Part shown: in pieces, positions 6,456 to 34,066 of the stretch
Numbering within the stretch: the first letter of the stretch is position 1
How the letters are laid out: each line of letters begins with the position of its first letter
Virus record (IMG/VR): IMGVR_UViG_3300045256_000282
Span: 1-64,000 of that record
Source: a virus
Direction: 5' to 3' (one strand)
Length of the DNA stretch: 64,000 nucleotides
Notes under the pieces: model-generated
What the model was told of the DNA's origin: nothing
Databases searched by the model: none
Seen by the model: only the letters and a program-made list of their open reading frames with translations
Made by a program: the position numbers and the translations under genes

Positions 6456-8293
6456 TGGTAGACCTAAGTAATCCCGCAGAAAAGCTTAAGGCTAAAAACC
6501 TTCTCAGGGTGCTTCAAAACAAGGAGCAGCTCAGGGACTGGTATCGCGCTTATTTTGGTATCGAGATGGTTGGAGATACGATTGATCCAGATTCAAACTC
6601 TAACCCTCTAGACGCTGCGTGGCAGATCTACGAGGCCGTCCGGGACAATAAGGGCGAAGAGGTTGATGGCTTTATCATGCTTTCAGCTCGAGAAGCCTAT
6701 AAGACCCTCTCTGCTGCTATGCTGGAAGTTTTACTTTTACTGCATTTCCAGGTAACCATATCGCACATGGCGGCTATTCTGAAACAGTCGGACAAAGCCG
6801 TTGCGTATATTACTTCGTTTTTGAACAAACTAAAGCCGTACATAGATTATAACGGGTGGAAACAGGTATCGGAATCCAAAACGATGCTTGAGTTCCAGAC
6901 CCCAGAAGGGCACAGGCCATATATTCTTGTGGTCGTGTGCTCTATGGCTGGCGCTAACGGGCCTCACACGAACCTGATGTTTGTCGATGAGATCGACGTT
7001 ATCCGAGATCCGGTCGCTTACGAGGAGTCAAAACTCATTCCTGGTATGGAAAGAGGAAGACTACCCATCACAGTTAAGCTTTCAACAAGAAAGTTTGCGT
7101 TCGGACTCATGGAAAAAGAGCTTAACGATGCTAAGGAAACTGGAGAGAAGATCCTTAGGTGGAACATCATAGATATAGCTGAGAAATGCCAGCCCTCCAG
7201 GTTTCAGCCGAACGCAGACGGGTCTAGAATCACCGCTTACGTGGCTAAGAAGCTTCCGCTGACTACCATAACGCCTGCGGAGTTTGAGGCTAAGCACCCA
7301 CAAGAAAAAGCCGATTGGGAAAAAGTTGAGGCGCACCCAGGGTGCTTGGGTTGTAAACTTTTGCCAGTTTGTAAGACTAGGCTAGCCGATAAGCCGGAGT
7401 CATCTGTTAAGAACCTATACAAACCAATAGCGGCCCTTCTAAAATCTTTCAAAAAGGTTAGTCCAGACATGGCCGAAGCCCAGTTGATGTGTTGGAAACC
7501 TTCCTCCAAGGGTCTGGTGTATCCAAGATTTGATACTCACAAGAACGTTTTAAGCGTAGATCAGGCTTTGGAGCTTTTGACTGGAGATAAGGTCAGTGGG
7601 GCTAGTTTTGATGAGCTGATACAAACCCTTAAAAAACTAGAAGCAAGGTTTTACGCTGGGGTTGACTGGGGATACACCCATGAGGCGACGATAGTCGTCA
7701 TGGCAGTAACGTCTAGTGGCTATAGCCTGATAGTAGAGACGTTTGGTAGCCCCGGACTAGAAATTCATGATTTTAAGATGCTAGGGTTGCGTTTTCAAGA
7801 AAAGTACGGGATCTCAAAGTGGTTTTATGACCAAGCATCTCCCTCAAACATCAAGACGTTTACAAAGGCTGGTATGAAAGGCCCAGAGTTTACAAAGGAC
7901 GTTCTTGGGGGCATTGAGGCTATACGCTCTCAGATCGTAGACACTATGGGTCAAAGACGGCTTTTCGTCATAAATACGGAAGAGAACCGTAAGATCATAC
8001 AGGGATTTAAGGTTCACCATTTCAAACTAGACAATGCCGGAAACCCCACCAAACACCCTGACGACGAGGAATTCGCCGACGTTATGGACAGTTTACGATA
8101 CATAGGGCAGAACGTTCACGGACCCAAGAACTCAAATAAGATCATAATTGGTTCTGATAATCCTCAAGAAGGTCGGCAACACCCTACTATGGCTGAGCAA
8201 TTAAGTCAAGAAATAAGGGTTAGGGTTGTGGAAACTGGCGTAAAGACTGAGGAAACTGTTAAAAAGAAGCGCGGTCTGATTTGGGACATGTGA
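6455..8293 (+). CDS. terL: Terminase large subunit (packaging ATPase/nuclease)
   Basis: Motor that pumps DNA through the portal. The ATPase domain has a deviant Walker A (SAREAYKT, residues 77-84) and Walker B NLMFVDE (173-179). The RNase H-like nuclease starts at AGVDWGYTH (about residue 403) and ends with the acidic motif FADVMDSLRY (about 540). Between them (about 295-308) is HPGCLGCKLLPVC, a cysteine cluster that could bind zinc and is not part of the canonical TerL core. It overlaps GroEL by TAATG. No small terminase is evident beside it. Confidence 0.93.
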   Translation: MVDLSNPAEKLKAKNLLRVLQNKEQLRDWYRAYFGIEMVGDTIDPDSNSNPLDAAWQIYEAVRDNKGEEVDGFIMLSAREAYKTLSAAMLEVLLLLHFQVTISHMAAILKQSDKAVAYITSFLNKLKPYIDYNGWKQVSESKTMLEFQTPEGHRPYILVVVCSMAGANGPHTNLMFVDEIDVIRDPVAYEESKLIPGMERGRLPITVKLSTRKFAFGLMEKELNDAKETGEKILRWNIIDIAEKCQPSRFQPNADGSRITAYVAKKLPLTTITPAEFEAKHPQEKADWEKVEAHPGCLGCKLLPVCKTRLADKPESSVKNLYKPIAALLKSFKKVSPDMAEAQLMCWKPSSKGLVYPRFDTHKNVLSVDQALELLTGDKVSGASFDELIQTLKKLEARFYAGVDWGYTHEATIVVMAVTSSGYSLIVETFGSPGLEIHDFKMLGLRFQEKYGISKWFYDQASPSNIKTFTKAGMKGPEFTKDVLGGIEAIRSQIVDTMGQRRLFVINTEENRKIIQGFKVHHFKLDNAGNPTKHPDDEEFADVMDSLRYIGQNVHGPKNSNKIIIGSDNPQEGRQHPTMAEQLSQEIRVRVVETGVKTEETVKKKRGLIWDM

Positions 8294-11712: not shown

Positions 11713-13659
11713 TTGCGCGGCATAAGTAACAACACCAAAGAAGCTTTGGGAAAAATCGTAGAAGAGATGTTTGATCGAGTGGCGGTCGGACTTCTTGGCC
11801 ATATTCCCCCTCTTCGTAACAAGAAGTCCATACTTTTTAGTTACAATCCAAACATGACTCTTGCCCACCTGTTTGTTCAGGCTCTAGGAGGCTCAAGACC
11901 TCTTCCAAAAGAACAAGAGGTTATGAAGAACTTGCTTTCTACTGCCCATGACTACATCGAGTCTCTTAAGAGTAAAACAAAGGCAAATCTTACCGAGTCT
12001 ATTGACTCCTACGTAAAAGAGGCGAGAGCAAAAGGCGAAGCGCCTACCGAAAAAGAAATAAGAGACAGAATTACGAACTCTCTTGTTGTTGCCGGAAAAC
12101 ATCTAAAGACTATCTCTGAAGCAGAATCCACCAAGACTAGGAACATGGGCAAGCTCATGAACATAGCAAGAGCTGGTGCTTCTACAGGAGAATCTGACCC
12201 AAACGTATTTTTTGTTGTGGTTAGAGACCAGCAAACTTGCGAAGAATGCTTAAGACTTCACATGATGCCAGATAAGGTTACTCCGAAAGTCTGGAAGATG
12301 AGCGAGCTTAAGTACTCTTATCACAAGAAGGGTGAGGATCTCCCCAGTGTTGCTGGGTTACATCCTCATTGTTTTACCGGAGACACACTCCTGTACACTT
12401 CCGAGGGCGTATTTGCCTTTGAAGAATTATTTAAAACTCAAAAGAACGTCATGGTCACCGTCGATAAGAGGGTTGTTAACAGAAAATCTCCCTCTAATCA
12501 GTTCGGTAAGGCTATTCCCGGTGAGGTCTGGTTAAACAGACATGAGAGCGGTTCTAAGTTTATGGAAGCCACTACCGTATACGATACTGGGGTTCAAGAA
12601 TGTTATGAGATAGAGCTTGAGAGTGGTCATACCTTAAAAGTTTCTGAAGGCCATGAAATGTGGGTCGATGATGACGGTATGGGCAAAAAGGTAAGAGCCG
12701 TAGACTTAAAAGTGGGCGATAAGATTCCTCTACTGTCTGGGGAGTCGGGTTTTGGAAAAGATAACTTTGAAGACCTCGCCGAGTTGATGGGTAACCTAAT
12801 GGGTGACGGCGTAATGGGTGAAACAGCTCAATGGAATTTTTTTGGCGAAGACATACCCTACGGTGAAAATCTTTTGCAAAAAGCTAAAAACTTCCTATCT
12901 GATTACTCTAAGGAATCGTTTAAGAAGATAAGCGAACATCTTAGGATTTTTCCTCCCAATGAAAAGTACAGTGTTCCTAGGGCTACCTTCAACAGTACTG
13001 TTCTTGCTAATATTTTTAAGGAAGAATTTGGCCTGTCGAAAAAACCAAAGCGTGTTCCTAAGAAACTTTGGACTGCTGACAAGAAGACCGTATCGGCTTT
13101 TTTAAGAGGTCTATATGCAGCAGATGGGCACTCAGAGCTTTCTTCGGTAGTTTTGGCACAAAATGACTTAGAATTCTTAAAAGAAATTCAATTGCTCTTA
13201 GCTAATTACGGAATAGTGTCTAGAATTTTTAACCACGGGTCTGATCAAATAAATAAAACTATAACTTACGCAAACGGCGATAATTTTGATACGGCTAGGA
13301 AGCCTTGCTGGAGACTTGTTATCGGTGGTAATGAGCAATGTGAGCTGTTCTCTGTTGAGATAGGTATGGGTGTTAAGACCAAACAAGACAAGTTATTGTC
13401 TTTCATAGAAAACGGTAAGCAAGAAAACAAGTCTAGATTTTTCTGGCGGACAACTAGGGTTAAGTCTATTAAAGCTATTGGTAAGATTCAAACTTACTGT
13501 CTGACGGAGCCCATGACCAATTCTGTTACGGCGAACGGTATAGTTACTGGAAATTGCCGCTGTACCCTCACTCTGCTAACTCCTGGTTTTGGGTTCAAGA
13601 ACGGTATGGTGTCCTACATATCTCCAGACCATAACGAATACGAAAAGCAGAAAGAATGA
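11713..13659 (+). CDS. Head morphogenesis protein (Mu F / SPP1 gp7 type) interrupted by an intein
   Basis: The host protein is minor head protein of the Mu F/SPP1 gp7 family: DQQTCEECLRLHMMP (residues 172-186) and, after joining the exteins, LHPHCRCTLTLL, the family's conserved HPxCRC motif. An intein of 395 aa sits between HPH (219) and CRC, so the mature protein would be 253 aa. Start is TTG at 11713 after GGGGA; no better in-frame start exists. These proteins enter with the portal and are needed for head assembly or DNA ejection. The order portal, small helical protein, Mu-F protein is classical. Confidence 0.92.
   Translation: MRGISNNTKEALGKIVEEMFDRVAVGLLGHIPPLRNKKSILFSYNPNMTLAHLFVQALGGSRPLPKEQEVMKNLLSTAHDYIESLKSKTKANLTESIDSYVKEARAKGEAPTEKEIRDRITNSLVVAGKHLKTISEAESTKTRNMGKLMNIARAGASTGESDPNVFFVVVRDQQTCEECLRLHMMPDKVTPKVWKMSELKYSYHKKGEDLPSVAGLHPHCFTGDTLLYTSEGVFAFEELFKTQKNVMVTVDKRVVNRKSPSNQFGKAIPGEVWLNRHESGSKFMEATTVYDTGVQECYEIELESGHTLKVSEGHEMWVDDDGMGKKVRAVDLKVGDKIPLLSGESGFGKDNFEDLAELMGNLMGDGVMGETAQWNFFGEDIPYGENLLQKAKNFLSDYSKESFKKISEHLRIFPPNEKYSVPRATFNSTVLANIFKEEFGLSKKPKRVPKKLWTADKKTVSAFLRGLYAADGHSELSSVVLAQNDLEFLKEIQLLLANYGIVSRIFNHGSDQINKTITYANGDNFDTARKPCWRLVIGGNEQCELFSVEIGMGVKTKQDKLLSFIENGKQENKSRFFWRTTRVKSIKAIGKIQTYCLTEPMTNSVTANGIVTGNCRCTLTLLTPGFGFKNGMVSYISPDHNEYEKQKE
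12370..13554 (+). other. Intein with LAGLIDADG endonuclease domain
   Basis: In-frame 395-residue insertion starting at Cys1 (CFTGDTLLYT, block A) and ending TANGIVTGN with terminal Asn, followed by Cys+1. Block B is SGHTLKVSEGHEMW (TxxH-like). Dodecapeptide endonuclease motifs are LMGNLMGDGVM (block C) and FLRGLYAADGHSE (block E). Block F/G is TYCLTEPMTNSVTANG. The penultimate residue is Gly rather than the usual His, a known variation. It should self-splice by the class 1 Cys1 route and home to intein-free alleles. The site is the most conserved motif of the host protein, as is typical for inteins. Confidence 0.93.
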
Positions 13660-17744: not shown

Positions 17745-19127
17745 ATGGAACAACTGCAAGCACTCATTAAGGCGCTGGAAGCGGGTAGCTACAATGCTGC
17801 TCCTGGATCTCTGGTTCAGGGCTCAGCATTGCAGCACGAAGATCTCTCTCCAGTCATGCAAAACGTCACTTTTGGTGACGAGCACATCAAGTTGCAGAAG
17901 GCGTTGAAAATCGAAGACGCTAAATCTCAACTTGTTCAATTTAACCGTCAGCTTAGCTACGGTACCTTCGGCGGAAGCGCCCAGTATGAAGGTGGTATTG
18001 GTGAAGAAGACACCAGTGACTACATTCGTGCGGTGGTACCAATGGCCTACTACAGCACGACTCGTCGTGTCACAGTGGCTGCTAACATGATCGGTGCTTT
18101 CGACGGCGTAAAAGCTGAAGATCGCGCATCGGAAGATGCTGCTAAGAAAATCGTTGGCGATATCGAGTTGGACATCCTTAAAGGTATGTCTGATTTCTCT
18201 AACGCTGGTGTTTTCGACGGTAACCCAGGCGCAATTGCTGCCCTCCCGAACATGTTCGGTTTGGATCAGCAAGTTCGCCAATCTGACGCTCAAGCTTCTA
18301 CTCAGGATCTCATGTTCGCTGAGTACGGCTCTGACCAATCGGTCGTTCTTTCGGCTGACGGATCGCTCACGCAATCCATCATCGAAGATTCGGCTGTCCG
18401 TTCAGCAATGAACATGGGTCATGCCGATAAGTTCATGCTTGATCCGATCTCGTTGTCCGCATACAACAAGATCTCTCACGCTAAGGAACGCATCGTTCTC
18501 GCTGGCTCTCCTCAAGAAGCTAGCGGCGCTGCTCTCCGCCAACAGTGGACCAGTTCGGGCGCTGTCAGTCTTGAAGCTTCGCGCTTCATCTCTGGCAAAA
18601 CGCGTCCTGCTAAGGCCCGCGCTGGAAGCCCAGCAGCTCCTGCTGCTCCTTCTGACGCTGCAGTCTTGGCTGCTGGATCGCTGCTCGAAGCTGGTAGCTA
18701 CGTTTATTACGTAACTGCTGCTAACGAGCGTGGTGAATCACTTCGTTCTCCTTCGATTTCTAGCGCTGTAGCTTCGGCTGGCGATGCTGTTGATCTCACG
18801 ATCACGGCTGTTGCTAACGCCAAATACTACAACGTGTATCGTTCGGACGTTGGTGGTTCGGCTGCCGATGCTAAGTTCATCGGTCGCGTGAAGCAAGCCC
18901 TTGGAAACCCTGTGTTCCGTGACCTCGGCAATCGTAGCCCTGGCTCGGTCACTGGCTACCTCCTCCAGATGGACACTTGGTCACTTCATCAGTTGGCTCC
19001 TTACAGCAAGCTCAAACTTGCTGTTAGCGATCTCAGCTTGCCTGAAGCGCACTTCCGTTTCCTCTGCTTGGCTGGTCTCCAACCTCGCAAAAACGTCTTG
19101 ATCGACAATATTGACGGTCAGCTTTAA
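17745..19127 (+). CDS. Major capsid protein with inserted Ig/FN3-like domain
   Basis: 460 aa, ideal AAGGAG site. Assigned by position (after scaffold, before terminator), by its strongly optimised codon use compared with neighbours, and by the HK97-fold pattern: N-arm, ALKIEDAKSQLVQFNRQLSYG, MAYYSTTRRVTVAANM, LDILKGMSDF, MLDPISLSAYNKI. Residues about 305-385 form a separate beta domain (AGSYVYYVTAANERGES, then YYNVYRSD) like Ig/FN3 insertions that decorate capsids. The C-terminus (LPEAHFRFLCLAGLQPRK) returns to the core. A strong terminator follows. Confidence 0.88.
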   Translation: MEQLQALIKALEAGSYNAAPGSLVQGSALQHEDLSPVMQNVTFGDEHIKLQKALKIEDAKSQLVQFNRQLSYGTFGGSAQYEGGIGEEDTSDYIRAVVPMAYYSTTRRVTVAANMIGAFDGVKAEDRASEDAAKKIVGDIELDILKGMSDFSNAGVFDGNPGAIAALPNMFGLDQQVRQSDAQASTQDLMFAEYGSDQSVVLSADGSLTQSIIEDSAVRSAMNMGHADKFMLDPISLSAYNKISHAKERIVLAGSPQEASGAALRQQWTSSGAVSLEASRFISGKTRPAKARAGSPAAPAAPSDAAVLAAGSLLEAGSYVYYVTAANERGESLRSPSISSAVASAGDAVDLTITAVANAKYYNVYRSDVGGSAADAKFIGRVKQALGNPVFRDLGNRSPGSVTGYLLQMDTWSLHQLAPYSKLKLAVSDLSLPEAHFRFLCLAGLQPRKNVLIDNIDGQL

Positions 19128-19243: not shown

Positions 19244-20770
19244 ATGATGAAGGCTAAGGATCAAACTACAGAACGGATCGTTGCAGAAAGGTTTCCCAAA
19301 GGGGATACTGCTGAGAAGATCGCCTTAGATTTGAACCTAACAATATCCGCTATAAATTATCATATTAATAAGCTAAAACTCAGAAAGCCTATAGATAGGT
19401 CCAGACCATGCACAATATGTGGGATTGTCTTTGTACCTAAATATAGCGATGGTGTAAAGAAGAACAAGTATAAAACATGCTCTGTAGAATGTTATAGTGC
19501 ATTCCTGAGTAAGAGCCGTACTAAGTACTCCGAAGATGATATTCAAAAAGTTAAGGACCTAAAGAGTAGGGGTGTTGAAAACTTTTTGATTTCTAAACAA
19601 ACTGGGGTAGACATAAATAAGGTCAAAGAGATAGTAAGGAAAAACAACCTATTCTTAGACACTGCCGTTAAGACTAAAAATTCTCAAAAAGGTAAGGCAT
19701 TAAAAAACCCAGACCATATGTCCCACATGAGAAGCGGCCATATGGAACTTTCTGAGGAACAGTTTTACAAAAAAATTAAACTCATTGAGAAGGACATAGA
19801 ATTAGGTTTAGGCACAGCTTCTGGTTTGGCTGTAAAGTACGGATTGGTACCGGCCTCCGTAGTAGCAGTACTTAATAGGCAGGGAAAGAAGAGCCTTTTA
19901 AACGTCAAGGAGTCAACCGGACAAGTTGGTGTTAAAGAGTTTTTAGAAAGTATTGGCTTAAAAGTTTCCTACAACGACAGGAAAGCAATAAAACCCAAGG
20001 AGATTGACATCTACGTTGAGAGCAAGAAGATCGGTATCGAGTACTGCGGTATATACTGGCACTCAGACCTGTTCATAGACGATAATACCCACCTGGACAA
20101 GATGAAGATGGCCAATGCTGCGGGAATTCGTCTGATAACGATATTTGAGGATGAGTGGTTGAATAGGCAGGATCAGGTTAAGAACTTCCTTAAGGCTACA
20201 CTTGGTGTTAGCGATAGGAAGCTACACGGTCGAAAATGCACCGTTAAGATCATACCTGCCCTTGTCGGTAAGACCTTCATGGAAAACTATCATATACAAG
20301 GTGCTGCCATTAGGAGCATGGTCTATCTAGGGCTTTGGCATGAGGATGAACTGGTAGGTGTTATGAGTCTAGGTAGGCATCATAGGCGCTCAGCTAACGG
20401 TGAAGTGGTGTTGGATAGGTTATGTTTTAAGGATGGGGTTACCGTGTCAGGAGGATCCTCAAAGCTTCTGTGTGTAGCAATAGGGTGGGCTAAAAAACAA
20501 GGTTTTACGAAGATGGTAAGTTGGTCCGACAACAGGTGGTCCCAGGGTGACGTATACCGGGCCTGTGGCTTTAAGCTTGAAGAGGAGCTTAGGAGGGACT
20601 ATAGCTACGTTAAGCAAGCCGGGCGTGTCTCCAAGCAATCCTGCACCAAGGCAGCCTTAGCTAGGCTGGGTGCGGTAGGGGCTACTGAGAAGGAGATGGC
20701 CGAAAGCCTTGGGTATGCTAGGATTTGGGATTGCGGCAAGAAGCGATGGGTACTGGAAATCGAGCAATAA
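19244..20770 (+). CDS. Free-standing EDxHD (Vsr-like) homing endonuclease
   Basis: 508 aa. Order: helix-turn-helix (residues about 5-45), zinc finger CTIC...CSVEC (about 55-82), a second DNA-binding helical region, then a very-short-patch-repair-like nuclease core: EIDIYVESKKIGIEYCGIYWHSD, HLDKMKMANAAGIRLITIFEDEW (about 254-310). This is the EDxHD family exemplified by I-Bth0305I. The C-terminal 180 residues (RSMVYLGLWHEDELVGVMSLGR, YRACGFKLEEE) look like a GNAT-type fold often fused to these enzymes. It sits alone between the capsid terminator and a head gene, typical of a mobile insertion next to a conserved gene. Its codon use and AGG/AGA-rich arginines differ from the capsid gene. Confidence 0.87.
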   Translation: MMKAKDQTTERIVAERFPKGDTAEKIALDLNLTISAINYHINKLKLRKPIDRSRPCTICGIVFVPKYSDGVKKNKYKTCSVECYSAFLSKSRTKYSEDDIQKVKDLKSRGVENFLISKQTGVDINKVKEIVRKNNLFLDTAVKTKNSQKGKALKNPDHMSHMRSGHMELSEEQFYKKIKLIEKDIELGLGTASGLAVKYGLVPASVVAVLNRQGKKSLLNVKESTGQVGVKEFLESIGLKVSYNDRKAIKPKEIDIYVESKKIGIEYCGIYWHSDLFIDDNTHLDKMKMANAAGIRLITIFEDEWLNRQDQVKNFLKATLGVSDRKLHGRKCTVKIIPALVGKTFMENYHIQGAAIRSMVYLGLWHEDELVGVMSLGRHHRRSANGEVVLDRLCFKDGVTVSGGSSKLLCVAIGWAKKQGFTKMVSWSDNRWSQGDVYRACGFKLEEELRRDYSYVKQAGRVSKQSCTKAALARLGAVGATEKEMAESLGYARIWDCGKKRWVLEIEQ

Positions 20771-26878: not shown

Positions 26879-27426
26879 TCTGGGGAAGACTAAAAAAGAA
26901 CATTGAAGATAAGTTGATACCGGCAGCTCACAAGGAAAAGCTTTTTAAACAAAGAGAAAAATTCTCCAAGTCTGCAAAAGATGAGTCTTTAAAGCTTGAA
27001 CACTATTCTCATGAGCAAAACTTAAAAGAGATCGACCCCAAGAAGATGGGCTCTGGGGCAGACGCTCAAACAAAAAGAGGTGGCCCTATGGAGCACCCTC
27101 ATAGCTTTTTTTATAGAAGCGGCCATCCCCTACCCGAAGAAGATTCTCATATTCATCGTCAGGCTAGTAGCAAGTATCATGTTGAGTTGCCTTCAGATGT
27201 AAAACTTTACGACCTATCTACAGATCCTCATAGACTCAGAGAAAAACTAATACAAGAAACAAAGCATAGACAGGTAAACCCTGGGCACCCAACACCAGAC
27301 GAGCTTCATGAAAGACTCAAAAGCCACGGCTATCATGGGTTTTACTATTCTAAACATCCCTCAATGTCCAGCGTAGTTGCTCTATATGACAAGGTTCCAG
27401 TAAAATCTGAGGAGAAGAAAAAATGA
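26875..27426 (+). CDS. Second ADP-ribosyltransferase-like polyvalent protein
   Basis: 183 aa. LEHYSHEQNLKEIDPKKMGSG, then HSFFYRSG, and a C-terminal GYHGFYYS...SVVALYDKVPV match the outline of ART-PolyVal domains (HYS start, aromatic centre, final beta strand). It is smaller than and not obviously derived from the upstream ART. It overlaps both neighbours by ATGA, so it is made together with them. Enzymatic activity is unproven. Confidence 0.65.
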   Translation: MIWGRLKKNIEDKLIPAAHKEKLFKQREKFSKSAKDESLKLEHYSHEQNLKEIDPKKMGSGADAQTKRGGPMEHPHSFFYRSGHPLPEEDSHIHRQASSKYHVELPSDVKLYDLSTDPHRLREKLIQETKHRQVNPGHPTPDELHERLKSHGYHGFYYSKHPSMSSVVALYDKVPVKSEEKKK

Positions 27427-28529
27427 TGGATTCTCTAAAGAAATCTCATGAAAAGAACATGGCTCACAATGGCCTAGCGTTGTTGTACCCGGTCTCTGTT
27501 ATGGGAAGACACATGAGATCTAACGGGATACCACACCATGTTACGGTGAAGTTTTTTGATAAGCCAGAGATTACCGCAGATGATGCTCATGACTACGCTC
27601 AAAACGAAAATTTAAAAACTCCAAACCCTTACGACATTATGGTTACTCCTAAGGTTTTTAAAAATAGATTTGGCGAAGACGTACATGTTCTTGCTCTTGA
27701 AGGGTCGGGAATTGATCACGTAAAACAAGCAAACGCAAATGGCTCCCATCTTGGCCAGCCCGTAAATTACAAGTTTACCCCTCACATAAGTGTGGACAAA
27801 GAAACTCACGATAGGGTTGCCTCTATGGGAAGGCCAGTAAAAGCCAGTGAGCTGGGTATTAAGTTTGGCCCACCAGAACTTAGACATGGTCCCAGAGTGG
27901 TTGCCACCTATAATAAGATCGAAAAGAATATGTTTGGTATTGAGATTGAGGATGTTGAACTTAAAAAGTCCTTAAAACATACGGCTGCCGCGACCGCCGC
28001 GCTGATGGGTCTTATGGGTAATCCAAACATGGCTGGCTCTATTTCTGAAAAACCGCCTGTGGTTGCCCAACCTCAGGCAAACAAGGGCAGGATGCTTAGC
28101 GCTATAGCTGCTGTAGAATCTAGCTCAGGTAAAGATACACATCACGAGCCTTTGCATGGTATGCATCAAGGTGAAAGCGCTTATGGAAAGTACGGACTTA
28201 CGCCGATTACGGTTAGGGAAACCGTAGGTCGACACCCGGATCTTAAAAGAGCACACAGAGGAGTTTTATCTTTAAAAGGCAAGGATTTTCAATCCTACAT
28301 GCAAAAAAATCCAAAACTAGAGGAAGAGGTGGCCTCACGCCATTACGACAGATTAAACAAGCTCTTCCACGGAGACCCTGGAAAAATGGGTTATGCCTGG
28401 TTAAATGGGATAACTGGGGGTCTTAGAGCCGCCAAACAAGGGTTTGATTTTGACAACCATTGGCATGTTAAAAAGATCAAAAATGCGTATCAAACTATTG
28501 AAAACACTAAGAATTCTCAAAAAAAGTAA
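27423..28529 (+). CDS. 2H phosphoesterase fused to a lytic transglycosylase-like domain
   Basis: 368 aa. N-terminal part carries two HxT/S motifs: HHVTVKFF (His39-x-Thr41) and FTPHISVD (His121-x-Ser123), 82 residues apart, the signature of 2H phosphoesterases (LigT, CPDase, anti-CBASS Acb1). Residues about 220-360 resemble a goose-lysozyme/SLT fold: MLSAIAAVESSSG (candidate Glu232), YGKYGLTPITVRE, then a region rich in aromatics. A hydrophobic Ala/Met stretch (186-205) links the two. A combined RNA- or cyclic-nucleotide-cleaving and wall-cutting virion protein would be unusual. Fourth gene of the coupled cassette. Confidence 0.75.
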   Translation: MMDSLKKSHEKNMAHNGLALLYPVSVMGRHMRSNGIPHHVTVKFFDKPEITADDAHDYAQNENLKTPNPYDIMVTPKVFKNRFGEDVHVLALEGSGIDHVKQANANGSHLGQPVNYKFTPHISVDKETHDRVASMGRPVKASELGIKFGPPELRHGPRVVATYNKIEKNMFGIEIEDVELKKSLKHTAAATAALMGLMGNPNMAGSISEKPPVVAQPQANKGRMLSAIAAVESSSGKDTHHEPLHGMHQGESAYGKYGLTPITVRETVGRHPDLKRAHRGVLSLKGKDFQSYMQKNPKLEEEVASRHYDRLNKLFHGDPGKMGYAWLNGITGGLRAAKQGFDFDNHWHVKKIKNAYQTIENTKNSQKK

Positions 28530-30733: not shown

Positions 30734-31642
30734 ATGAAGATCACAGCTTCTGCAGAACAGTTCCTTTCTAAGGCGCTGGGCCAAGATGGCCTAGATGCAC
30801 TGCAGAAGTCTGAGCTTTTTAAGCTAAAGGCCAATAAGGTCGTTCCTATAGACGAGATCAAGACTGCTATGCAGATCGTACCTCGGACTGTAATCACACT
30901 ACTCCACAAAGAACTTGGCGCGATGAAGATCGGTGAAGGCAAGGACGTAGTTCTTCCAGTTCAACCAGAAGCCATCTTACATGTAACCAAATACGACAAC
31001 GACGTTTATAGCGGGGATATCCATAGACCTGGAAACGTTATGGCTAAGTTTCAAGATCGATCACTCCCTGGCGTTGGTTTGATCATCATGTCTACTTTTG
31101 AGCTTTACGATGTATCAGACCTAGCATCGGCAGCTCCAAGCTCCGTGCCTAGCTTAGAAGAGGCTAACGTTCAAAAGATCATTGATGAAAGAATGGGCCT
31201 ACGAGATCTTGTAAGACAAGTAGTTGACCAAAGAATTACGGAAAGAGAAGCGATTGACAGCATCATAAGGATGAGGTTAACTCAAGCTATGGCCGAAGCT
31301 ACTCAAAAAAAAACAGAAAAGCCTGAAGAGGCACCTATGGAATCTAAAAAACCTACGAGTAAGCTTAAAGAGTTTATTGAACGAAGAGCTAGGAAAGCTC
31401 CTAAAGAATTTCAGATCAGCATGGCTAAGAACGAAACCGTTGTATGTGAAGATTGTAAAAAAGAGATCTTCACCAAAGGCGCGTTCTCTGGCTGCATCTG
31501 CTATGGTGACGATCGAAACAACAAGATCTTCATTACTAAGAATGAGAACGGATTTACTATGCGGTTTCCTCGTAGTTGGGATGTGGAAAACGTCCAGATG
31601 CTTTTGGAAACTTTGCGAGATAAGAACAGGGGTTCCAAATGA
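30734..31642 (+). CDS. Virion-region protein with C-terminal zinc ribbon
   Basis: 302 aa. Helical N-terminus with LQKSELFKLK, a middle domain (VTKYDNDVYSGDIHRPGNVMAKF), a charged helical linker, then CEDCKKEIFTKGAFSGCICYG near residue 236, a four-cysteine ribbon. Not assigned to a family. Coupled by ATGA to the palm-domain protein that follows. Confidence 0.7.
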   Translation: MKITASAEQFLSKALGQDGLDALQKSELFKLKANKVVPIDEIKTAMQIVPRTVITLLHKELGAMKIGEGKDVVLPVQPEAILHVTKYDNDVYSGDIHRPGNVMAKFQDRSLPGVGLIIMSTFELYDVSDLASAAPSSVPSLEEANVQKIIDERMGLRDLVRQVVDQRITEREAIDSIIRMRLTQAMAEATQKKTEKPEEAPMESKKPTSKLKEFIERRARKAPKEFQISMAKNETVVCEDCKKEIFTKGAFSGCICYGDDRNNKIFITKNENGFTMRFPRSWDVENVQMLLETLRDKNRGSK

Positions 31643-33114
31643 ACAGATTATTCGTAGCTTTTGATGGCGATAATATGGGCTCACAAGTTGGTCAGGCTGT
31701 CCTTATGGACGATGCTCAACAACTTCACGAGATCTCTCGTCGAATTGATAGCGCTGGACGAGCGATACAGGATTGGGTGGAATCTAACGGAGGCCAGATG
31801 GTCTCGGTTGGTGGGGATGAAGGAACTTTTGTTATCGATCCTTCTATGGAAGAACATCTTGAGGAGTTGAGAGGAGTTTACCAACAGATCAGTGGTGGTA
31901 CCGTAACGTTTGGCGTAGGATACTCTCTAAGTCAAGCCGGTAAGGCTTTGATGGCTGGAAAACTTATGGGAAAAGATATTCTGGTTAGGTATGACGACCA
32001 GGTAGACCACATCCTTTCTGATGCGCATGATCAGGTTCAAACTGGTGGTGGAAGTCCCGAAGCTCAGAAACAAGATGAGCATTATCTTAGCCACGTTGTG
32101 CTAGGCGATGCTGGAAACGGCGAAGAGGATGTTAGCCAAGAATCTGCTGATGAATACGACATGGCTCCAACCTCTAATTCTCCAGATGACCAAGAAATTA
32201 CTCCTGAAGGCGCTGCTGCCGCACAAGAGATGGTAGATGACGCAGCAAATTCAGAAGGCTGCAATTGTCCTGCTTGCCAAGAGCGCCATGCTATGGAGGC
32301 TCAGGGTCAGGGGCCGGAAGAAGAAGCAACTGAGGGTTGCGATTGTCCTGCTTGCCAAGAGCGTCATGCTATGGAGAGTGGTGCTGAAGAGCCTATGCCA
32401 GAGATGGCTACTCAGAATGAAGAAGATCTTCCAGAACAAGACTCTATGCAGATGATTCCAGATGCTCAAGCTGAGGGTTCGGACCTTCCTCCTATGCAGA
32501 TGCCAGAATCTCAAGAAGATCCTCAAAGCGCTATGGGAGAAATGGGCGAAGAAGATGCTATCGAGATTCCAGAGAACGAGTCTTTAGACGAGCAAAAAGA
32601 TCCAGAAGAGATGGTTGCTGCCGCAGTAGGGCCTAATGAAGATCCTGAGCAAGAGGGCGCTGTTCCTGAAGAAAACATGTCAGAAGACGGCTTTCCAGGC
32701 GCAATTCCTGGTGAAGGTGAAGAACCCGTAAATCAAGAAGATCTAGAAGAGATGCAAGATCCTTCAAACGAACAGATGCCTCCCCAACAAGACATGGGAG
32801 CCATGGGTGAATCCCAGGAACAACCTGGGGACCTAGACCTATTGTCCGAACTTTTATCAGATGCAGGATCTACTGATGAGCTTAAACAAAGAATTGCAGC
32901 TATACTTGAAAAGTTTAAAGCGAACAGGGATTCAATCATCTCGATGAAAGATCAGAACCCCGAGATGTACCAATCGATCATACTCATGCTTAAGCAGATG
33001 ATCGACATGGCGAGACATCTAGCCCCATCATCGCCAGAGGAAGATATGCCTCAAGATGAGCAGTCTGTTCCAGAGGAAGCTTCTCAGGAGGAAGCACCTC
33101 TCCCAAAACAGTAG
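31639..33114 (+). CDS. GGDEF/Cas10-like palm-domain protein with long acidic tail
   Basis: 491 aa in the zero frame. Residues 1-125 form a compact palm: LFVAFDGDNMG (Asp9, Asp11), a long helix, GGQMVSVGGDEGTFVI (GGDE 58-61), VTFGVGYSLSQAGKAL, then AGKLMGKDILVRYD. The D-x-D strand followed by a GGDE hairpin and a Lys-containing GKD strand is the layout of GGDEF and minimal Cas10-like (mCpol) nucleotidyl cyclases. The rest is acidic, with a 78-bp duplication encoding CNCPACQERHAME/CDCPACQERHAME (32254-32376). The gene ends at a -1 frameshift site. A catalytic role is inferred only. Confidence 0.75.
   Translation: MNRLFVAFDGDNMGSQVGQAVLMDDAQQLHEISRRIDSAGRAIQDWVESNGGQMVSVGGDEGTFVIDPSMEEHLEELRGVYQQISGGTVTFGVGYSLSQAGKALMAGKLMGKDILVRYDDQVDHILSDAHDQVQTGGGSPEAQKQDEHYLSHVVLGDAGNGEEDVSQESADEYDMAPTSNSPDDQEITPEGAAAAQEMVDDAANSEGCNCPACQERHAMEAQGQGPEEEATEGCDCPACQERHAMESGAEEPMPEMATQNEEDLPEQDSMQMIPDAQAEGSDLPPMQMPESQEDPQSAMGEMGEEDAIEIPENESLDEQKDPEEMVAAAVGPNEDPEQEGAVPEENMSEDGFPGAIPGEGEEPVNQEDLEEMQDPSNEQMPPQQDMGAMGESQEQPGDLDLLSELLSDAGSTDELKQRIAAILEKFKANRDSIISMKDQNPEMYQSIILMLKQMIDMARHLAPSSPEEDMPQDEQSVPEEASQEEAPLPKQ
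32254..32376 (+). repeat. Tandem repeat encoding a CxCPACQERHAME metal-knuckle-like motif
   Basis: Two copies of about 45 bp, nearly identical and in frame with a 78-bp period, give EGCNCPACQERHAME and EGCDCPACQERHAME. Cys-x-Cys-x-x-Cys plus His could bind zinc. Confidence 0.8.
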
Positions 33115-33146
33115 GGTCGGTAGAAAAAGGCGGGAAACTGCCGACC
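33102..33146 (+). other. Programmed -1 ribosomal frameshift signal
   Basis: Slippery heptamer C_CCA_AAA (33102-33108) in the correct register, 3 nt before the zero-frame stop TAG (33112-33114). Spacer of 6 nt (33109-33114), then a hairpin: GGTCGGTAG (33115-33123) pairs with CTGCCGACC (33138-33146), 9 bp with one G-U. The -1 frame stays open for 68 codons and its TAA overlaps the next gene's ATG at 33314 (TAATG). Confidence 0.88.
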
Positions 33147-33314
33147 AAGCAAACAACTCGCCACGTAGCAAGAACTAGACAACCCGAAGGTGCTATTAAC
33201 CGTAAGGGTTTTGAAAAAGTCATCGATAACGAGACTGGCAAAACTAGATGGGTAGATCGTAAGAAGCCTGTTGCCCTTGACCTACAGGGCGATCCTACTC
33301 ACGAGAGATTCTAA
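33108..33314 (+). CDS. -1 frameshift extension of the palm-domain protein
   Basis: Frame without any ATG, GTG or TTG start of its own that lies outside the upstream gene, so it can be reached only by the -1 shift at 33102-33108. It adds 68 residues (TVGSVEKGGKLPTK, then RQPEGAINRKGFEKVIDNE and KKPVALDLQGDPTHERF), giving a 558-aa product. The extension is basic while the upstream tail is acidic. It fills what would otherwise be a 200-bp gap. Confidence 0.82.
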   Translation, partial: TVGSVEKGGKLPTKQTTRHVARTRQPEGAINRKGFEKVIDNETGKTRWVDRKKPVALDLQGDPTHERF

Positions 33315-34066
33315 TGAACCTTAAGTTTTTTGTTAACGCAGATGATATAGCCAACGAGATGAAGGCTTTTAAAGAAGAGGCTAAGCAGGCGATAGAAGAG
33401 TCTGTTAAGCAACTATCTGCGATGACGCACGCTAAGGTTGTTGAGCTTGCACAAGAAAAGTTAAAAAGTACACGCAAGATCTATACCGACAATTTGGATT
33501 ATCAAGAGCTTGTCCCAGGCTTGTGGGTTGTTAGTTTAGATCAGCCAGCGTTGTGGATCGAAGAAGGCCGTAAATCTGGGGACATGACACAAGACCTGCT
33601 CAAGACTGGCGCTCACATAGCTAAAGATGGAAGTCGATATAAGGCGATTCCTTTTGATCACGGTAAGCCTCCATCTCAGATGGACCCCTTCAGCAGAAAC
33701 TTGGTGGCAAAGATCAAGTCTGAGCTTAAGAAAGCAAACATACCCTTTAAGAAGCTTGAGCTTAACGCAGATGGAAGTCCGAGGATAGGTCGGCTTCATA
33801 CCATGAACATCTCTAGTCCTCACCCAAGCTCGAGGGCTAGTCATCCGGCACTTTCTGGTTTGACCATATATCAAACAAAAGGTGCAAATGGCAAGGTTCG
33901 TCGCGATATAATGACCTTTAGAATGGTAAGCGATAAACATAAAGGCTCTAAGTGGATTCATCCTGGAAGAGACGCCGAGGGCTTCTTTGAAAAAGCTTTA
34001 CAGTGGGCCGAAGATCAGTGGGAAAGAGAGATCCTACCTCAGATCATGGCGAGGTTTGACAAATGA
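33314..34066 (+). CDS. Tail completion protein, HK97 gp10-like
   Basis: 250 aa. ALWIEEGRKSGDM, AKDGSRYKAIPFDHG, and the C-terminal MVSDKHKGSKWIHPG followed by FFEKALQWAEDQWEREI are the landmarks of the gp10-like neck/tail completion family (WxHPG motif near the end). Such proteins join the finished tail to the head. The start overlaps the stop of the frameshift product (TAATG) and the end overlaps the next gene (ATGA). Confidence 0.78.
   Translation: MNLKFFVNADDIANEMKAFKEEAKQAIEESVKQLSAMTHAKVVELAQEKLKSTRKIYTDNLDYQELVPGLWVVSLDQPALWIEEGRKSGDMTQDLLKTGAHIAKDGSRYKAIPFDHGKPPSQMDPFSRNLVAKIKSELKKANIPFKKLELNADGSPRIGRLHTMNISSPHPSSRASHPALSGLTIYQTKGANGKVRRDIMTFRMVSDKHKGSKWIHPGRDAEGFFEKALQWAEDQWEREILPQIMARFDK

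Follow-up and report, generated by a model that had tools for sequence, protein, structure and literature searches.

What happens to a ribosome that reaches the end of a gene when the coding sequence goes on in the -1 frame? The question is raised by a gene located between the head and tail genes in the window, that is, the whole stretch of 64,000 nucleotides analysed here (positions 1 to 64,000 of IMG/VR record IMGVR_UViG_3300045256_000282, a virus record of 149,068 bases). The window carries terminase-like, portal, major head protein (17745-19127), terminator-like (34063) and tail sheath (36086) genes, which indicates a contractile-tailed phage. On the evidence of sequence comparison, we consider that the mCpol-domain gene in this region ends in a programmed -1 ribosomal frameshift of the three-part dnaX type, a reading to which we assign a probability of about 0.93.

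A probable frameshift signal at the end of the mCpol-domain gene

The junction and the genes that it joins comprise the following elements:

31639..33114, + strand: mCpol-domain zero-frame gene, short product of 491 aa, 3' end CTC CCA AAA CAG TAG
33086..33091, + strand: AGGAGG, Shine-Dalgarno-like, 10 nt upstream of the heptamer
33102..33108, + strand: slippery heptamer C_CCA_AAA, in register, read from the sequence
33112..33114, + strand: zero-frame stop TAG, inside the 6-nt spacer CAGTAG, beginning 3 nt past the heptamer
33115..33146, + strand: 9-bp stem-loop with a 14-nt loop, arms 33115-33123 and 33138-33146, 6 nt past the heptamer
33102..33314, + strand: -1-frame extension, 70 residues from the slip plus the stop codon TAA (33312-33314)
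33314..34066, + strand: next gene, a conserved head-tail-region protein (phrog_16819, E=7e-14), whose start overlaps the extension stop

An earlier note on this DNA had described a slippery C_CCA_AAA in register followed by a 6-nt spacer with the zero-frame stop, and direct reading confirmed both. The hairpin that it reported pairs at 9 of 9 positions, one of them G-U, between the arms GGTCGGTAG (33115-33123) and CTGCCGACC (33138-33146). Likewise, its 68-codon -1 frame without a start of its own corresponds to the 68 new residues among the 70 of the extension (PKTVGS...THERF), and the stretch between the opening of the -1 frame and a point 45 nt beyond the heptamer contains no ATG, GTG or TTG in that frame. 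The extension stop shares one base with the next ATG (33314-33316), giving the TAATG overlap at 33312-33316 that had been noted, and a net charge of +7, by count, bears out the claim that a basic tail is added to an acidic protein. The junction elements had all been described correctly; what it lacked was the Shine-Dalgarno-like AGGAGG upstream of the heptamer, the recognition of the palm domain as mCpol, and the finding that the frames switch from lineage to lineage. Elsewhere in the window, the A_AAA_AAG TAA that ends gene 27423-28529 (at 28519-28529) leads by reading into a short -1 ORF only, and is probably a chance occurrence.

The layout recurs in 32 distinct loci

Homologues were searched for with the neighbouring genes, and later the extension, as queries, and came from IMG/VR, with one more on a contig of a bacterial MAG and another in Mx1, a named and cultured Myxococcus phage. 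The mCpol protein found no match in a tblastn search of named phages nor, used alone, in a scan of IMG/VR, where the neighbour gene 33314 succeeded as query; the neighbour-gene search repeated with a wider alignment added zero further viral loci. We found 32 distinct loci, which form 21 clusters at 70% identity and share an in-register heptamer, a zero-frame stop and a homologous -1 extension. From the end of the heptamer to the zero-frame stop there are 0-15 nt in 31 of the 32 loci and 18 nt in the remaining one (L126), and codon shuffles would give 2.3 loci with a heptamer within 0-15 nt of the stop, against the 31 observed.

The heptamer is mostly C_CCA_AAG or C_CCA_AAA in the window's half of the tree and mostly A_AAA_AAG in the other half, with G_GGA_AAG once and a longer A run once among the 32 loci. 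Three loci recovered with an HMM of the extension only, without the heptamer (L022, L030 and L047), all proved to have A_AAA_AAG. In E. coli, C_CCA_AAG, G_GGA_AAG and A_AAA_AAG are the most efficient motifs when stimulators are present, with shifts of up to 54% (PMC4066793). No recognisable extension was found in L028 and L037. Aligning the homologues, a check that the earlier note had proposed, found heptamer, stem and extension all conserved. In one related locus (L003), a GIY-YIG-like homing endonuclease ORF, recognised by reading, lies between two conserved head-tail-region genes (6734-7678, minus strand).

Putative stimulatory elements flank the heptamer

Averaged over the 32 loci, the energy of pairing with the anti-Shine-Dalgarno sequence upstream of the heptamer is about -1 kcal/mol, except at a distance of 9-10 nt, where it peaks sharply at -5.6. 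An element about 10 nt upstream, as in dnaX, is thus found both in the window and as a peak of the family, although by the same measure it is weak or absent in L024, L030 and L110. Taken one locus at a time, many of the shuffle tests were weak, owing to the abundance of Glu codons in the gene.

Downstream, the stem of the window folds with -16.7 kcal/mol (z = -3.8), and none of 200 shuffles was equally stable. The 24 loci that were folded typically begin their stem 5-7 nt past the heptamer, inside the range of about 5-9 nt that characterises stimulators of -1 programmed frameshifting, and their z scores are negative in 23 cases, with a mean of about -2.2. Furthermore, among 11 distinct relatives of the window the stem reaches a covariation score of 0.396, compared with 0.244 +/- 0.034 for shuffled alignments (0 of 500), with columns 3 and 4 switching between C-G and U-A, each in 5 of the 11 sequences, and with 88.9% of the stem cells paired, a share that does not exceed 47% once the arms are slid. 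The covariation scoring covered the stem type of the window's clade, and since related sequences can beat shuffles without any structure, we regard it as supporting rather than decisive. Rfam holds no relevant family at the junction.

The extension is conserved as protein

Pairwise pN/pS values of 0.04-0.33 place the extension under strong purifying selection, and invariant positions are found across 17 aligned sequences, although an alignment of 17 extensions proved too diverse for use in scanning. In a structure model it has an extended N-terminal part and a small beta-hairpin (pLDDT 80, pTM 0.50); this model had no match below E = 0.001 in the PDB. By these measures of selection, the extension is a genuine protein segment, and the -1 frame is conserved coding sequence, which in the window and in a further 20 loci has none of the usual start codons near the junction.

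Related phages fuse the frames, or probably reverse or change their roles

Twelve distinct close relatives carry the extension fused in frame to the gene (L031/L032 and L102/L103 each being counted once), and more distant in-frame C-termini homologous to the extension (profile comparison, probability 95.7) occur in Mx1, L035 and L038. Six of the twelve close fusions (L027, L033, L097, L102, L104 and L130) retain the heptamer at the junction, compared with 0.87 expected, and in those six the -1 frame closes within 3-16 codons; with a heptamer and an early -1 stop, it is the short form that would be the frameshift product. L033, L102 and L104 also retain the Shine-Dalgarno-like sequence and a strong hairpin. 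A similar reversal is predicted for Mx1, where an SD-like GGAGGGG lies upstream of C_CCA_AAA and a TGA follows soon after in the -1 frame (L004 7380-7412), so that frameshifting would yield a short form of WNM70340.1. The remaining six close fusions (L023, L031, L039, L096, L133 and L137) are plain, without the cassette, which argues that a ratio of two products is not indispensable everywhere. In L023 and L096 the main frame reads CCC/CCT AAA, as though changing a single base had brought the two frames together.

In two further relatives, L100 and L101 (5950-6010 in each), it is the +1/-2 frame that encodes the extension; AGGAGG precedes CCCCACAGC by 12 nt, and the stop is followed immediately by a 9-bp inverted repeat. 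This is probably a -2 frameshift, with +1 as the alternative; a tRNA-Pro slipping by -2 from CCA to CCC would join the frames. In a tree built from the two genes downstream, some deep nodes of which are weak, the -1 state is found on both main branches and the fusions are nested in several places.

Alternative explanations of the junction

The fusions bear on the simplest alternative, that a sequencing or assembly error or gene decay has broken what is truly one continuous frame. Relatives such as L023, L027, L031 and Mx1 do have the continuous frame, and the earlier note had named in-frame fusions without the slippery site as a finding that would expose an error. In-frame fusions do exist, in separate clades; however, 32 distinct loci share the break together with the heptamer, the stop right after it, the stem and usually the SD-like element, and about half of the close fusions keep the slippery site. 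The same broken layout in so many distinct loci rules out a sequencing error, and we give this explanation practically no chance of being correct. Hardly more probable is that the extension forms a small gene of its own, reached by reinitiation or an internal start and using AGGAGG to bind ribosomes, even though that sequence lies just upstream and stop-to-start overlaps of genes occur in the region. In 21 of the 32 loci, the window among them, none of the usual start codons (ATG, GTG, TTG) occurs in the -1 frame around the junction; the SD-like peak follows the position of the heptamer, and conservation of the heptamer would be needless for such a gene.

The remaining alternatives concern how, or why, the second frame is reached. 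Runs such as A_AAA_AAG could slip in transcription, and one clade has them, whereas the window and about half of the family have CCCAAAA or CCCAAAG, and 3-4 A are short for slippage of RNA polymerase. As the stem and the SD element are furthermore stimulators of ribosomes, transcriptional slippage is a very improbable source of the extra frame. A frameshift that is mainly regulatory, acting through pausing or through coupling to the next gene at TAATG, would suit the overlap of the extension stop with the next start in the window, but it would leave the protein encoded by the extension unimportant. The strong purifying selection on the extension residues and the several clades that keep the extension as an in-frame fusion make this a similarly slim prospect. 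Collectively, the comparisons favour a programmed ribosomal frameshift that is very likely real; the slip itself, its efficiency and its purpose are what we infer.

The gene encodes an mCpol domain within a structural operon

The gene begins with an mCpol/Cas10-palm domain (residues 1-124), followed by a long acidic region, a conserved helical segment and then the junction. The domain was recognised as Pfam PF18182 (E=1.2e-14, above the Pfam cut-off) and matches the PDB mCpol entries 9nwn/9mnr by sequence, and its AlphaFold model (pLDDT 95.5) matches Panoptes OptS 9pd0 with a TM of 0.76-0.91. The frameshift gene has no PHROG match. It shares its palm fold with the Panoptes OptS/mCpol cyclic-dinucleotide synthase (PMC12657218), whose catalytic Asp6/Asp57 have the counterparts D9/D60 in the window protein; it differs from OptS in its place in a phage structural operon, its long acidic C-terminus and its frameshift tail. 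D11 and D60 are invariant in 22 of 22 aligned family proteins, the D9 position is Asn in the clade of L024, L030, L034 and L047, and the motif is lost in Mx1. With catalytic residues altered in that clade and in Mx1, cyclic-dinucleotide synthase activity is plausible in this phage, judging from the residues, and is not required across the family.

An OptS-like mCpol domain thus lies at 31639-32055 within a phage structural operon, an arrangement of which we found no description in the open-access literature. Pfam gave no match for the genes on either side (30734 and 33314), neither of which was recognised with it as a Panoptes effector (2TM-beta, CARF or SAVED), and both recur in relatives as genes of the structural operon. 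Other features of the head region include a phage chaperonin (4671-6455, Cpn60/TCP-1 family, E 8e-34) adjoining the terminase-like gene, a MuF-like head gene split by an intein with a LAGLIDADG domain (11713-13659) and, downstream of the gene for the major head protein, a protein (19244-20770) that combines a Mom-like acetyltransferase domain with an MTES_1575 nuclease-like one and is possibly a homing-type element.

A proposed dnaX-like mechanism in a different gene

According to the mechanism that we propose, a ribosome that approaches the 3' end of the mCpol gene would pair its 16S rRNA tail with AGGAGG and then meet the stem-loop. Paused with tRNA-Pro and tRNA-Lys on C_CCA_AAA, it could slip back by one base. 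Ribosomes that do not slip would halt at TAG and release the acidic protein of 491 residues, and those that slip would make the same protein with 68 new residues added as a conserved basic C-terminal tail that runs up to the next gene.

E. coli dnaX (tau/gamma) likewise combines an SD-like element, a V_VVA_AAR heptamer and a simple downstream stem-loop (PMC5009743, PMC5600365), and its relatives also show a reversal of roles, the shift yielding the long or the short product (PMC5009743). The gene itself is unrelated to dnaX, and in the phage loci it is mostly the long form, and in relatively few the short form, that the shift would produce. The tail-assembly chaperones of lambda (G/GT), P2 and Mu likewise lie in a morphogenesis region and add a C-terminal domain by a shift near the 3' end of the gene, and the Mu frameshift offers a precedent for -2 (PMC5009743). 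Those genes, however, lie between the tail tube and tape measure genes, whereas the gene studied here precedes the terminator-like and sheath genes and encodes an mCpol domain; it does not classify as a tail-assembly chaperone, in agreement with the earlier note, which had placed this frameshift in a different kind of gene. T7 gene 10 and the major head protein of Lactobacillus phage A2 also form two isoforms by a -1 shift and are not tail chaperones (PMC5009743). They differ in gene and in stimulators, and the gene described here is not the capsid gene, the major head protein being encoded elsewhere in the window.

With the SD-like element, heptamer, stem and extension all under selection, and with a two-product layout that outlasts fusion of the frames, the comparisons point to two isoforms needed at a ratio in most, not all, lineages. 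Regarding the purpose, docking is suggested by the basic charge of the tail, the acidity of the protein that bears it and the position of the gene between head and tail genes, and we tentatively propose, as a possibility rather than a probability, that the frameshift sets the ratio of a short and a long form, with the basic tail docking onto the virion or onto an assembly partner in the head-tail region. A bolder and considerably less likely proposal is that this virion or assembly protein is an active cyclic-dinucleotide synthase, that the frameshift sets the number of tailed, particle-mounted copies, perhaps with decoy or signalling nucleotides released on entry, and that the frames have flipped repeatedly, including to -2.

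Taken together, the mechanism is known and the gene family is new. The locus adds to the programmed frameshifts of phages a clear and deeply sampled case outside the tail chaperones, and shows that the mCpol domain, hitherto known from anti-phage defence, also occurs within the structural operon of a phage. As the junction varies among related phages between -1, reversed -1, probable -2 and plain fusion, the family offers a natural experiment on why frameshifting persists.
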